A stretch of 38,133 nucleotides of DNA from Acidimicrobiales bacterium (GTDB lineage: Bacteria > Actinomycetota > Acidimicrobiia > Acidimicrobiales > MedAcidi-G1), in NCBI GenBank assembly GCA_016845305.1, contig JAERSW010000018.1, positions 1-38,133 on the forward strand, in the 5' to 3' direction. Both the position numbers and the translations under genes were made by a program. Shown piece after piece: positions 8,152 through 36,061 of the stretch; position 1 is the first letter of the stretch, and the number at the start of each line of letters is the position of its first letter. The notes beneath the pieces were generated by a model. The model saw only the letters and a program-made list of their open reading frames with translations. It did no database searches and had not been told where the DNA came from.

Positions 8152-9200
8152 CCGACGACCTGCTGCAGGCCCTCCTCGACGTCGAGGTCCCGACCGCCGG
8201 GCGGTGGACGGCGACCGAGGTGCCCGACACGGACGCCATCGCGGTCGACGTCGACCCCGACGTCCTCGCCGGACTCGAAGCCGCGGCGGTGGCCCTCGCC
8301 GCCCGGGGCGTCGATCCGGTCGACGCCGGACCGGACGACCTGCCCCTCGACCGGCTCGCCTCCCTCGTCGACGAGGTCCGCCACGAGGTGCTCCACGGCC
8401 GTGGCCTGGTCCTGCTGCGCGGCCTGCCCGTCGACCGGCTCTCCGTCGACGAGATGGCACTGGTGTTCTGGGGTCTCGGCCTGGGGCTCGGGCGGGCCGT
8501 CTCGCAGAGCGTCATGGGCGAGCGCCTCGGCCACGTCGTGAACGTCACCGACGTCGACCCGCACGCCCGCGCCTACCGCAACCGGTCGGAGCTGGCCCCC
8601 CACAGCGACCCCGGCGACCTGCTGTCGTTCCTGTGCCTCCACCCGGCGCTCACCGGGGGCATCAGCCGGTTCGTCAGCTCGCTGACCGTGTTCGACGAGA
8701 TCCGGGCCGACCGGCCCGACCTTCTGGCCCACCTGGCGAACGGCTTCCGCTACCACCGGTTCGGCGAGCAGGGCCCCGACGAGGAGGCGATCACGCCGCA
8801 CCGCATTCCCGTCTTCAGCCTGCGCGACGGCCTGGTCAGCGGCCGCTACGTCCCGGAGTACGTCCAGATCGCCGCCGACGAGGACCCGTCGATCGAGCTG
8901 TCCGATGCCGAGGTCGAGGCGCTGGAGCTGCTGCACGCCACCACCAACCGGGCCGACCTGGTGCTGGACTTCACCATGGCGCCCGGCGAGATGGTCCTGG
9001 CCAACAACTTCACGGTGCTGCACGCCCGCACCGCCTTCACCGACTCGCCGGAGCACCGCCGCCACCTGCTGCGCCTCTGGCTGGCCGCCGAACCGCCCCG
9101 GCCGGTGGTGCCCGAGACCCGCCAGTACCCCGACGAGCCGGGCATCCCTCCGCAGCCCGGTCGCACCCCGTCCTTCGCCAGCCGTTACGACCTGCCATGA
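8148..9200 (+). CDS. TauD/TfdA-family 2-oxoglutarate dioxygenase
   Basis: A 350-residue protein with the features of the TauD/TfdA oxygenases. GRGLVLLRGLPVD near residue 85 is the family entry strand; the iron ligands are His152 and Asp154 (APHSDPGD) with distal His292 (VLHARTAF), and an arginine in EHRRHLLRLWL (304-309) should bind 2-oxoglutarate. The family hydroxylates next to sulfonate, aryloxy or quaternary-amine groups, leading to cleavage. The substrate here is unknown; lying between two transporters suggests a compound moved across the membrane. The start at 8148 is fixed by the ATGA overlap with the MFS gene. Confidence 0.88.
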   Translation: MTDDLLQALLDVEVPTAGRWTATEVPDTDAIAVDVDPDVLAGLEAAAVALAARGVDPVDAGPDDLPLDRLASLVDEVRHEVLHGRGLVLLRGLPVDRLSVDEMALVFWGLGLGLGRAVSQSVMGERLGHVVNVTDVDPHARAYRNRSELAPHSDPGDLLSFLCLHPALTGGISRFVSSLTVFDEIRADRPDLLAHLANGFRYHRFGEQGPDEEAITPHRIPVFSLRDGLVSGRYVPEYVQIAADEDPSIELSDAEVEALELLHATTNRADLVLDFTMAPGEMVLANNFTVLHARTAFTDSPEHRRHLLRLWLAAEPPRPVVPETRQYPDEPGIPPQPGRTPSFASRYDLP

Positions 9201-32165: not shown

Positions 32166-33233
32166 GTGATGGACGCCACCGCCACGGGACCCACCGACCT
32201 CCGGTCGACGCGCCTCGCGTTCGACGACGTGGCCGCCCTCCAGGAGCGGTTCCACGCCGAGGGCTGGACCGACGGCCTGCCGGTGGTGCCCCCCACCCCC
32301 GACGCCGTCCGCGCCTGCCTGGAGTGGGCCCTGCTGGAACCCGACCACCTGGTCGGCGTCGAACCGGTCCGCCAGCGGGCGCTCACGGCCGAGCAGGTGG
32401 CCACCAACGCGGTGATGGCCGGCTGCCTGCCGTCACACTTCCCCGTCGTCGTCACCGCCCTGACGGCCATGCTGTCCGAGCCGTTCCAGCTGCACGGGCC
32501 GATGGCCAGCACCGGCGGGGCGGCCGTCCTGCTGGTCGTGAACGGTCCCATCCGCCGGGAGATCGGCATGGACGGCACCTTCGACGCCCTCGGCCCCGGC
32601 GACCGGGCGTCGGCGTGCATCGGACGGGCCGTTCGCCTCGTGGTCGCGAACCTGCTCGACGTCCGGCCCGGCGGGACCGACCGCTCCACCCTCGGCCATC
32701 CCGGCAAGATCAGCTTCTGCCTCGCCGAGGACGAGGAGGGCACGCCGTGGGCGTCGCTGTCGGCCGAGCGCATCGGCGACCCGCACGCCTCGGCGGTGAC
32801 CGCCATGGCCGCCCTGGCCCCCCGCCAGGTCATGAACGAGTGGACGACCGAGCCGGAGCGGATCCTGGACACCTTCGTGGCCGAGATCCGGGCCAACATG
32901 CGCCACTACTCGATCTGGCCGGGCAACTACGCGCTCGTCGTGCCACCCCAGCTGCGCCAGCACTTCGACGCCGCCGGCTGGTCGAAGGCCGACGTCCGGG
33001 CCTACGTGTACGAGCACGCCCGGATCCACCGCCGCGAATGGGCCGACTGCGGCAAGGGCGCGGTGGTCGGCGACAAGGGCGACCGCGAGTACGCGGCGCT
33101 CCCCGACCCCGACCACCTGCTGGTGGTGGCCGGCGGCGGCCCGGCCGGCGGCTTCGGTGCGGTCATCCCGCCGTGGCTGGGGACCCGTTCGCAGGCCGTG
33201 ACGGTGCCGGTCGGCGCCTGCGTGGACTGCTGA
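32166..33233 (+). CDS. protein of unknown function, probable partner of the UGSC selenoprotein
   Basis: A 355-residue protein that I cannot assign to a named enzyme. It opens with a conserved-looking segment, RFHAEGWTDGLPVVPPTPDAVRACLEWA, followed by AVMAGCLPSHFPVVVTALTAML, and LHGPMASTGGAAVLLVVNGPIRREIGM. No signal peptide or clear membrane segment is visible. Later come GHPGKISFCLAEDEE and VVAGGGPAGGFGAVIPPWLG. The C-terminus ends with two cysteines, ACVDC. It is followed 15 bases later, in the same frame, by the UGSC gene. From memory, proteins with the DGLPVVPPT segment occur beside UGSC genes, but I cannot verify this. GTG 32166 has GAGACT 6 bases upstream; ATG 32169 is the alternative. 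Confidence 0.75.
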   Translation: MMDATATGPTDLRSTRLAFDDVAALQERFHAEGWTDGLPVVPPTPDAVRACLEWALLEPDHLVGVEPVRQRALTAEQVATNAVMAGCLPSHFPVVVTALTAMLSEPFQLHGPMASTGGAAVLLVVNGPIRREIGMDGTFDALGPGDRASACIGRAVRLVVANLLDVRPGGTDRSTLGHPGKISFCLAEDEEGTPWASLSAERIGDPHASAVTAMAALAPRQVMNEWTTEPERILDTFVAEIRANMRHYSIWPGNYALVVPPQLRQHFDAAGWSKADVRAYVYEHARIHRREWADCGKGAVVGDKGDREYAALPDPDHLLVVAGGGPAGGFGAVIPPWLGTRSQAVTVPVGACVDC

Positions 33234-33248
33234 GGGACCGGGGCGACG

Positions 33249-33776
33249 ATGACGATCGAGGTCCTGCACCCCGGCTATGCCGATGACGCCACGCCCGTCG
33301 ACGAGGTGGCGCGTCCGGCGTCGCTGGCCGGCCTCGTCGTCGGCCTGGTGTCCAACGGCAAGCAGGGCACGGCGACCTTCTTCGACGCCATGGACGAGTC
33401 GTTGCGGAACGACCACGGCGTCGCCGAGGTGGTGCGGGTCACCAAGGCCAGCTACAGCGCCCCGGCCGAGGACGCCGTGATGGATCGGGCGACGCGCTGG
33501 AACGCCCTGATCGCCGGCATCGGCGATTGAGGCAGCTGTTCGTCGTGCAGTCTGCACGACAGCGTGGCCGGCGAGCGGCGGGGCGTGCCGGCGGTGTCGG
33601 TGATGACCGAGCAGTTCACGTCGGCCGCCGAGCTGATGGCCACGGTGCTGGGTGCCGACGGCTTCCCGTTCGTGGTCATCCCCCATCCGATCAGCAGCGC
33701 CACCCACGAGGCGCTCGCCGAGACCGCCCGCACCGCCACCACCGAGTGCGTGGCCCTGCTCACCCGCGAACTGTGA
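33249..33776 (+). CDS. UGSC-family selenoprotein, read through an in-frame TGA
   Basis: One 175-residue protein, not two fragments. Codon 94 is TGA (33528-33530) and the next codons give Gly-Ser-Cys, so the motif is Asp-Sec-Gly-Ser-Cys, the hallmark of the UGSC family of small redox-type proteins. The frame stays open past the TGA to a stop at 33774-33776, with high-GC third positions and sensible sequence: SCSLHDSVAGERRGVPAVSV, then FPFVVIPHPISS. The N-terminal half begins MTIEVLHPGY and has LVVGLVSNGKQGT near residue 30. A hairpin fitting a bacterial SECIS follows the TGA directly. The true stop overlaps the hypF start (GTGA), which makes 33776 the natural end. The biochemical role of the family is not established. 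Confidence 0.88.
33528..33564 (+). promoter_or_regulatory. bacterial SECIS element after the Sec UGA
   Basis: Stem GTCGTGCA (33542-33549) pairs perfectly with TGCACGAC (33553-33560) around loop GTC. Counting the U of UGA as 1, loop G and U are positions 23 and 24, and positions 23-30 read GUCUGCAC. From memory these are the same bases at the same positions as in E. coli fdhF, where G23 and U24 contact SelB. Unlike fdhF, no bulged U17 is seen because position 17 is a paired C. GCTGT/ACAGC outside the stem can pair as an alternative lower stem. Confidence 0.8.
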
Positions 33777-36061
33777 CCGAAACGGGGACGACCGTCGAGG
33801 ACGGGTCGAACACCCGTCGTCACCGGATCTACGTCCGTGGAACCGTCCAAGGGGTGGGGTTCCGACCGTTCGTCCACCAGGCCGCGGCGGACCTCGGGCT
33901 AGTCGGCTGGGTTCGCAACGAGGGCTCGTCGGTGGCCATCGAGGTCGAAGGACCAGGGGAACGCCTTGCCGATTTCCGGAATGCCCTGGAAGGCAGCCCG
34001 CCGCCGCTGGCCGAAGTCCTCGAGGTCCTGGTCACGCCGATCGAACCCGTCGGGGAAACGGTGTTCCAGGTCCTGGCCAGCGAACGACGGGACGAGCCGG
34101 TCCAGGTGGCCTCCGACATCGCCACCTGCGCCGACTGCCTCGCCGAGGTCCTGGATCCCGACGACCGCCGACACGGCTACGCCTTCACCAACTGCACGAA
34201 CTGCGGCCCGCGCTTCACCATCGTCGACCAGGTCCCCTATGACCGGACCAACACCACCATGTCGGCCTTCACCATGTGCGAGGCGTGCCGGGCCGAGTAC
34301 GAGGACACCTCAAACCGCCGCTTCCACGCCCAGCCCACCTGCTGCCCGGACTGCGGACCGTCCCTCACCCTGACCGACCTGTCCCCGGACGGCCCGCCAC
34401 CGAACGACCCGATCGACCGGGCTGCCGCCCGGCTGCTCGACGGCGAGGTGCTCGCCGTGAAGGGCCTCGGCGGCTACCACCTCGCCGTGCTGGCCGACTC
34501 GGAATCCGCCGTGGAACGGCTCCGATCCAGAAAGCACCGGGAGGACAAGCCGTTCGCCGTGATGGTCCCCGACCTCGACGCGGCCCAGGGCCTCTGCGAA
34601 GTCGACGCCATCGGAGAGGACCTGCTCACCGACCCCGCCCGACCCATCGTCCTGCTCCGCCGTCGACCCGACTGTCCGATCGCCGACGCAGTCGGGCCGC
34701 ACACGACCGAGGTCGGGCTGATGCTGCCCTACACCCCGCTCCACCACCTGCTCCTCAGGGCAGTCGGTCGACCCCTGGTGCTGACCAGCGGAAACGCCTC
34801 TGACGAGCCCATCGCCTACCGGGACGACGACGCCCGACGGCGCCTGGCCGGGATCGCCGACGCCATCCTGTCCCACGACCGTCCCATTCGAATCCGGACC
34901 GACGACTCGGTGGTCCGGTCCGTCGCCGGCCAGCCGATGGCCATCCGCCGGTCCCGAGGGTTCGTCCCCGACTCCCTCCGTCTCCCCGTCCCGACCCGCC
35001 GACCGGTCCTCGGCGTGGGTGCCGAACTGAAGAGCACGGTGGCCCTCGCCGACGGGGACCGGGCCGTGGTGTCCCACCACATCGGCGACCTCCGCCATCT
35101 CGAGACCCACGGATCGTTCCTGGAGGCCATCGAACACCTCGGACGGCTGTTCCAGATCGAACCGCAGGTGGTGGCCCACGACCTCCACCCCGACTACCTC
35201 TCCACAGCACACGCCACCGGAATCGAGGGCGTGGACCTGGTGGGCGTCCAGCACCACCACGCCCACGTGGCGGCCTGCCTGGTCGACAACGGACGAACAG
35301 ACGAGGTCATCGGCGTGGCGTTCGACGGCACCGGCCACGGCACGGACGGCACTTCGTGGGGCGGAGAGTTCCTGGTGGCCGACCTGGCCGCATCCACCCG
35401 GAGGGGCCACCTCGAGGTGCTCCCGTTACCGGGTGGGGACGCCGCCATGCGCGAACCGTGGCGGATGGCCGCCGTCCACCTCGCCCACCTTGGCGACCCG
35501 ATGGCGGAGACCCCTCTCCGTGGCCGCCAACCGTCCTGGGACGACGTGGTGGCCCTCGCCGGATCGGACCTCGCTGGTCGGACGTCGAGCGCCGGCCGCC
35601 TCTTCGACGCGGTGGCCGCGCTGGTCGGGGTCCGGGACGTGGCCAACTACGAAGGCCAGGCCGCCATCGAGTTCGAACAACGGGTCGACCCCTCCGAGAC
35701 TGGCGCCTACCGGGCAGGCCTGTTCGACGACGGAACCCTGGTCGTCCGAGGCTCCGACCTGTTCGCCGCCGCCCTCGACGACCTCCGGACCGGGATCGAC
35801 GTGGGCCGGATCGCCGCCCGCTTCCACCATGGCCTGGCCGATGCGGTGGTCGAGACCTGTGACCGGATCCGGGCGGACGGTGGACCAGAGGTCGTGGCGT
35901 TGACCGGCGGCGTCTTCCTGAACCGGGTCCTGCTGACCCGAGCGGTCGAGGGCCTAGAGGGGTGTGGCTTCGAAGTGCTCCGGCACCGTGAGATCCCGCC
36001 CAACGACGGGGGGATCAGCCTCGGGCAGGTGGCGGTCGCCGCCGCCTTCGACCGTCGATGA
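33773..36061 (+). CDS. hypF: carbamoyltransferase HypF, NiFe-hydrogenase maturation
   Basis: A 762-residue full-length HypF, which turns carbamoyl phosphate into the carbamoyl group passed to HypE for the cyanide ligands of the NiFe centre. Domains in order: acylphosphatase (about 15-105; RIYVRGTVQGVGFRPF), two zinc fingers (Cys119/122 with Cys141/144, and Cys169/172 with Cys191/194), a YrdC-like domain (about 205-395; VLAVKGLGGYHLA, KHREDKPFAVM, LVLTSGNASDEPI), and a Kae1-like domain with HHHAH near 492 and PPNDGGISLGQ at the end. The GTG start overlaps the selenoprotein stop. More A/T-ending codons occur here (CTA, CTT, CAA, GAT, AAT) than in upstream genes, hinting at a different history. 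Confidence 0.93.
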   Translation: MTETGTTVEDGSNTRRHRIYVRGTVQGVGFRPFVHQAAADLGLVGWVRNEGSSVAIEVEGPGERLADFRNALEGSPPPLAEVLEVLVTPIEPVGETVFQVLASERRDEPVQVASDIATCADCLAEVLDPDDRRHGYAFTNCTNCGPRFTIVDQVPYDRTNTTMSAFTMCEACRAEYEDTSNRRFHAQPTCCPDCGPSLTLTDLSPDGPPPNDPIDRAAARLLDGEVLAVKGLGGYHLAVLADSESAVERLRSRKHREDKPFAVMVPDLDAAQGLCEVDAIGEDLLTDPARPIVLLRRRPDCPIADAVGPHTTEVGLMLPYTPLHHLLLRAVGRPLVLTSGNASDEPIAYRDDDARRRLAGIADAILSHDRPIRIRTDDSVVRSVAGQPMAIRRSRGFVPDSLRLPVPTRRPVLGVGAELKSTVALADGDRAVVSHHIGDLRHLETHGSFLEAIEHLGRLFQIEPQVVAHDLHPDYLSTAHATGIEGVDLVGVQHHHAHVAACLVDNGRTDEVIGVAFDGTGHGTDGTSWGGEFLVADLAASTRRGHLEVLPLPGGDAAMREPWRMAAVHLAHLGDPMAETPLRGRQPSWDDVVALAGSDLAGRTSSAGRLFDAVAALVGVRDVANYEGQAAIEFEQRVDPSETGAYRAGLFDDGTLVVRGSDLFAAALDDLRTGIDVGRIAARFHHGLADAVVETCDRIRADGGPEVVALTGGVFLNRVLLTRAVEGLEGCGFEVLRHREIPPNDGGISLGQVAVAAAFDRR

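Follow-up and report, generated by a model that had tools for sequence, protein, structure and literature searches.

The window analysed here is a whole contig of 38,133 nucleotides (nt) from an Acidimicrobiales bacterium of the lineage MedAcidi-G1 (assembly GCA_016845305.1, contig JAERSW010000018.1, forward strand). It carries a gene of the UGSC family interrupted by an in-frame TGA, and its product, judging from the sequence, is almost certainly a genuine selenocysteine (Sec) protein in which Sec is inserted at UGA. With moderate confidence we further propose that this protein, for which UGA is recoded through an in-frame selenocysteine insertion sequence (SECIS) element and the organism's own machinery, provides catalysis as the small subunit of a redox enzyme with two subunits, the other being encoded directly upstream. 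The computation supports Sec decoding, family membership, pairing with the upstream partner gene and a relation of the Sec module to that of GrdB/PrdB. UGSC selenoproteins were known previously, including in actinobacteria, and the gene adds a member to a known family (PMC2398784, PMC9402790, PMC13188914, PMC5330540, each as far as the accessible parts go). In the portions of the literature available, the partner linkage, the profile link to GrdB/PrdB and the predicted Rossmann/flavodoxin-like element order have no precedent.

The UGSC gene forms a single frame from ATG at 33249 to TGA at 33774-33776, with one internal TGA, at 33528-33530 (residue 94). Read through, it yields D-U-G-S-C as residues 93-97, and the motif in full is UGSCSSC. 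The sequence before and after the TGA falls within a single curated family. The Pfam UGSC profile PF24696 covers residues 5-172 of the read-through product with 165.7 bits (cut-off 25), and NF041046, described by NCBI as "UGSC family (seleno)protein", covers residues 28-172 with 134.1 bits (cut-off 125); both scores exceed the curated cut-offs, and Sec occupies the U of the motif. The window protein shares with the family the sequence on either side of the Sec codon, the UGSC motif and the exchange of Sec for Cys, and, as a member, differs from it in no respect; within the family it falls into a small subtype, G[IV]GD-U-G[SA]C, seen in three loci. The first-pass annotation, made from the letters alone, had joined two short pieces lying in one frame, placed Asp-Sec-Gly-Ser-Cys at residues 93-97, let the real stop overlap the start of the next gene, and foreseen a match to UGSC proteins past the TGA as well as Cys homologues with TGC or TGT at codon 94. 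All of this was borne out, the overlap being with the GTG at 33773, a putative hypF start. The locus illustrates how standard gene calling truncates such proteins at the Sec codon.

Homologues of the gene were gathered as 120 profile matches in fetched loci, 113 of them distinct; this set joins a subset of the matches in the class Acidimicrobiia with loci from a wider contig scan, which used a Cys-form pattern and so contributed Cys homologues only, for instance from the actinomycetes Yinghuangia and Embleya. A first parse by regular expression assigned 84 TGA and 16 Cys codons at the motif U position and missed 13 homologues, which alignment resolved into four with TGA and nine with TGC. The totals are thus 88 with TGA and 25 with a Cys codon, and no distinct homologue (0/113) carries anything else there. 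Since homologues carry either TGA or TGC/TGT at the same codon, a chance TGA is excluded.

Bacterial SECIS elements lie just downstream of UGA and have a small apical loop with guanosine (PMC1088965, consulted in part). In the window, a stem of 8 base pairs begins 11 nt past the TGA, just 3' of it as expected of a bacterial selenoprotein gene. We compared the stem with a null of 200 rounds of synonymous recoding that used each locus's own codon usage and kept the protein. The test covered the genes of the first parse (84 Sec and 16 Cys), omitting the four Sec genes assigned later, and the genes are related, so that counts are not independent. The Sec genes form 7.55 of 8 pairs on average (null 4.86 ± 0.145, maximum 5.18), and the Cys genes 5.13 (null 4.40 ± 0.33, maximum 5.06). 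Below the closing pair, compensatory C-G (61/84) and G-C (17/84) pairs occur, with Cys or Trp at that codon. The Ser codon of the loop is AGT in 77/84 Sec genes and in 0/16 Cys genes, and elsewhere in the Sec loci AGT makes up 116 of 573 AGY codons. The stem-loop is kept in Sec genes beyond the constraint of the protein, and far more than in Cys genes. An Rfam scan of the UGSC gene returned chance rows only.

The machinery for Sec decoding is present in the same genome (2.92 Mb, 136 contigs, 98% complete), as the first-pass annotation had supposed for this lineage. The tRNA-Sec gene (selC; 67.5 bits, Rfam cut-off 47, anticodon TCA) is found on contig C58 alongside adjacent selA (378.9 bits) and selB (269.3 bits). 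The fourth component, selD (352.6 bits; L050, G000:C121:15781-16713), has an in-frame TGA near the N-terminus in the context GAGUGCK, so SelD is itself likely to contain Sec. Three UGSC genes were found in this genome, each with a TGA. Across 198 sampled genomes of Acidimicrobiia, tRNA-Sec scores above the Rfam cut-off in 135 and a UGSC match (E up to 0.001) is present in 68. Sec decoding is therefore not rare in this class, and the earlier remark that selenoproteins are uncommon in actinobacteria does not hold for it; UGSC selenoproteins have also been reported from Geodermatophilaceae (PMC5330540, in the part available). A literature search found no paper that joins acidimicrob- organisms with both selenocysteine and selenoprotein. 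Genomes with TGA-type UGSC genes have tRNA-Sec in 50 of 56 cases, and those with the Cys type only in 3 of 10 (Fisher p = 0.0002; sorted by hand and uncorrected for relatedness, leaving aside two genomes in which UGSC is present just as fragments). As a separate observation, a UGSC match and tRNA-Sec are about 1.5 kb apart on opposite strands in three genomes, two of them (L163 and L164) checked by ARAGORN and the third (G153) by coordinates; the other two genomes are G031 and G091.

Three results weigh against this picture. The Cys genes also slightly exceed their own recoding null (5.13 against a maximum of 5.06). Six of the 56 genomes with TGA-type UGSC lack tRNA-Sec at E 1e-9; a looser search of these gave 47.4 bits in G119, just above the cut-off, 41 to 45 bits in three and nothing in two. 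Finally, tRNA-Sec is common also where no UGSC match occurs (81/130 genomes).

The gene upstream of UGSC, which the first-pass annotation had not noted, recurs with it. At 111 of the 113 UGSC genes, a partner homologue is encoded in the same orientation, 84 times upstream and 27 times downstream, and the other two genes are at contig ends. A profile of this partner of about 350 residues gave 132 matches in 67 of the 198 class genomes, 127 of which have a UGSC match no more than 400 nt away on their own strand; conversely, 127 of 134 UGSC matches have a partner. Five partner matches stand alone, all but one of them (G023:C15) touching a contig end. UGSC matches without a partner number seven: three at contig ends, three fragments or matches below cut-off, and one true exception (G146:C191). 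UGSC and its partner thus very probably constitute a fixed two-gene unit. Scans of the partner at 32166-33233 against Pfam and NCBIfam showed no family match, and the partner with its relatives gave nothing above threshold against Pfam, NCBIfam and PDB sequences. An AlphaFold model of the partner (pLDDT, the predicted local distance difference test, 74.4) retrieved by Foldseek mostly cyclic-amide hydrolases as best rows, at E 0.04 or worse and template modelling (TM) scores of 0.20 to 0.25, and by VIA-align a best Z of 7.0 over 75 residues, which is too weak to use. A segment with CxxC stands ahead of the partner, in one reading frame with it, in 34 of 111 loci; it may be thioredoxin (Trx)-like, as suggested by the motif and by a weak match (TIGR01068, E 0.012, below cut-off) in one relative's N-terminal segment. 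In the three-locus subtype to which the window belongs, two partners terminate in CxxC. The 2008 Global Ocean Sampling (GOS) paper, in the part accessible, describes UGSC fused to an "Unknown_1" domain, which may or may not be the present partner.

Profile comparison connects UGSC with the selenoproteins GrdB and PrdB. GrdB has a UxxCxxC motif and PrdB is its homologue (PMC13188914, as far as its available text goes). GRDB-type loci were read past their TGA and the profiles compared by hhalign. The UGSC profile (113 rows) aligns with the C-terminal part of 11 GRDB-type proteins with a probability of 92.8 and a score of 49.6 over 85 columns, Sec on Sec, and with the full-length proteins at 91.9 and 51.8. 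With the Sec column masked, the C-terminal part still gives 89.7 and 45.6, and the full length a score of 44.6. As controls, reversed profiles score 17 to 19 and 30 shuffled profiles at most 17.5. The residues E+15, G+18 and P+20, counted from Sec, occur together in 83/100 UGSC proteins and in 12/12 GRDB-type proteins, and Cys at +6 in 53/100 UGSC proteins. The likeness therefore comprises the Sec module by profile, these three positions, and the UxxCxxC of the window copy. The differences are in length, with 175 residues in UGSC and about 430 in nine of the eleven GRDB-type proteins used, in that UGSC does not reach PF07355, the model of the GrdB/PrdB selenoprotein B family after which the Sec module comes, and in a partner unrelated by profile to GrdE/PF09338. 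It is probable, on this sequence evidence, that the UGSC Sec module is related to that of GrdB/PrdB-type selenoproteins. We found neither a tie between UGSC and GrdB/PrdB nor the partner linkage in the literature, in a search that covered listings and accessible passages.

Several observations limit the strength of that relation. Masking Sec against the full-length GRDB-type proteins lowers the probability to 83.0, and a smaller UGSC alignment of 32 rows (A1) gives 87.5. Among 30 real decoys from neighbour families, the best, a cluster with 2-hydroxyacid dehydrogenases, scores 36.0 (probability 45.7) and the next 21.3; the former value means that the GRDB score may in part reflect a general Rossmann background. 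None of 32 UGSC proteins retrieved PF07355 with the E limit set to 10, although HMMER filters drop most matches above 0.1. The partner profile against GrdE scores 15.8, with shuffled decoys reaching 23.9, so no relation is seen, and the partner as a relative of GrdE was dropped for want of a profile signal. Because single UGSC sequences do not reach PF07355 and the partner is not GrdE-like, we claim a related Sec module and not membership. Searches for PDB sequence relatives of the UGSC and GRDB alignments gave none of use.

Some observations concern the GRDB-type genes themselves. In nine GRDB loci the PF07355 match stops right before the TGA. In nine genomes of the phylum (L140-L148), GrdB-like genes stop at a TGA beyond which the frame runs on (U-GTGTR), and PF09338 (GrdE) matches adjoin eight of the nine by coordinates. 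PF09338, of the GrdE/PrdA type, has no match in the genome of the window. That genome does have a GRDB-type gene (L162, G000:C116:6000-11000, match at contig 8483-8836) with homology that extends beyond a TGA (VPV-U-PVCHQT, then GVPT); this gene is likely to encode a further selenoprotein cut by gene calling.

The fold of the UGSC protein was modelled with AlphaFold2 from an alignment of 10 rows. In the resulting model (pLDDT 88.6), five beta-alpha repeats succeed one another, and Sec opens the helix that follows strand three; this predicted order of elements is Rossmann/flavodoxin-like. Foldseek gave one row at E 8.1e-4 (apo-YsxC, TM 0.48), and Z values of 8.7 to 10.9 were reached by many unrelated chains in VIA-align; in both, the fold resembles many unrelated Rossmann/flavodoxin-like chains with no clear best relative.

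Alternative explanations bear on the TGA codons and on the role of the protein. Translation table 11 ends the first open reading frame after 93 residues, as it would if the internal TGA terminated translation and left two fragments or a pseudogene at the locus; the chance of this is negligible, given homology that runs across the TGA, Cys at that codon in 25 of 113 homologues, a conserved SECIS element and Sec machinery in the same genome. The TGA at 33231-33233, which follows the CVDC end of the partner, could in the same manner be a second Sec codon (CVDC-U) joining partner and UGSC in one polypeptide, and the shared frame and TGA both in the window and in the orthologue L065 speak for such a fusion. 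In L065, however, the linker is of another length and a Shine-Dalgarno-like AGGAGG stands ahead of a GTG start; just 13 of 84 upstream partners are in the UGSC frame, five of these with TAG in between, and in 27 of 113 loci the partner comes second. On linker length, frame counts and gene order the fusion was rejected as highly improbable, and we read this TGA, from the same comparisons, as the stop of the partner gene.

With regard to function, UGSC might act on its own, as a thiol oxidoreductase of Trx-like kind or as an antioxidant protein, its neighbours being incidental. A Trx-like fold was proposed for it in the 2008 GOS paper (in the part accessible), and the UxxC motif, which it shares with thioredoxin-like selenoproteins, is typical of redox proteins. 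The predicted element order is instead Rossmann/flavodoxin-like, with five beta-alpha repeats and Sec after the third strand in the model, and a partner is adjacent in 127 of 134 cases; no Trx chain was listed in the structure searches with UGSC, an absence that does not exclude a Trx relation. We consider this alternative unlikely. A role in hydrogenase maturation together with the downstream hypF is suggested by the overlap of stop and start at 33773. Among the 83 loci examined, in which not all neighbours were typed, hypF forms no neighbour cluster of at least three loci, whereas other families recur, and a link to this non-recurring neighbour was rejected as very improbable.

For the two-subunit enzyme that we favour, the following sequence of events can be proposed. 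UGA would be recoded by means of the in-frame SECIS element and the genome's own Sec machinery, and UGSC would serve as the catalytic small subunit, and the partner as the large subunit, of a selenium-dependent reductase. By analogy with GrdB/PrdB, the Sec94 selenolate would attack the substrate and reductively cleave a C-N or similar bond; the case for such reductive-cleavage chemistry falls slightly short of even. A selenenylsulfide could then form with Cys97 or Cys100, as the UxxCxxC of the window would allow, and be reopened by a dithiol, which may be supplied by the fused Trx-like CxxC segment in many relatives and by the CVDC tail in the window subtype. More tentatively, UGSC and its large subunit may represent a separate, widespread class of two-subunit Sec reductases that combines the Sec module of Stickland-type glycine and proline reductases with a different large subunit, carries its thiols in a Trx-like segment or a CxxC tail, and in some members makes an acyl phosphate for an adjacent acetate kinase. 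The fixed partner and the link to GrdB/PrdB turn an uncharacterised family into a testable two-subunit reductase. Coordinates are given in Table 1.

Table 1. Features of the UGSC locus in the window
Feature	Coordinates	Strand	Remarks
Partner (proposed large-subunit) gene	32166..33233	+	355 residues, putative start; 127/132 profile matches adjoin UGSC
C-terminal Cys-Val-Asp-Cys of partner, possible thiol tail	33219..33230	+	CxxC end only here and in orthologue L065 (CIDC), 2/111 partners
TGA taken as true stop of partner	33231..33233	+	in frame with UGSC; from linker and frame comparison
UGSC selenoprotein gene	33249..33776	+	175 residues plus stop, Sec at residue 94; PF24696 and NF041046 over read-through product
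TGA selenocysteine codon	33528..33530	+	distinct homologues here: TGA 88/113, TGC/TGT 25/113
Predicted bacterial SECIS apical stem-loop	33542..33560	+	arms 33542-33549 / 33553-33560 (8/8 pairs), loop 33550-33552 (GUC)
hypF (carbamoyltransferase)	33773..36061	+	TIGR00143 735.4 bits; putative GTG start overlaps UGSC stop

Recurring neighbours of the unit vary with the UGSC subtype among the 83 loci with flanking genes. By the look of their sequences only, short-chain dehydrogenases (28 loci), luciferase-like oxidoreductases (12) and zinc alcohol dehydrogenases (9) were recognized, and by Pfam, with one representative scanned for each, AMP (adenosine monophosphate) ligases (12 loci), an aminotransferase, a MaoC-like protein and 2-hydroxyacid dehydrogenases. 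In four loci an acetate kinase gene (PF00871, 431 bits in the one scanned) begins 44 to 47 nt after UGSC. Since glycine reductase yields acetyl phosphate (PMC13188914, available portion), this neighbour fits the reading of the unit as a reductase; against that, it is confined to one genus and is thin evidence. A NifU-like protein of about 85 residues also recurs beside the unit, mostly with Cys-type UGSC (L114, L115, L118, L120, L122, L124, L127, L055 and L103), and in the one scanned PF01106 scores 25.5 bits, just below the cut-off of 27.

Elsewhere in the window, between 11814 and 22570, Pfam matches outline a catabolic run with a member of the histidinol-dehydrogenase family, a DegT aminotransferase, an M24/creatinase-like peptidase, an FAD (flavin adenine dinucleotide) plus GcvT protein and a protein of the Rieske oxygenase alpha-subunit type. 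As a guess, these genes may serve the breakdown of a methylated amine or betaine.
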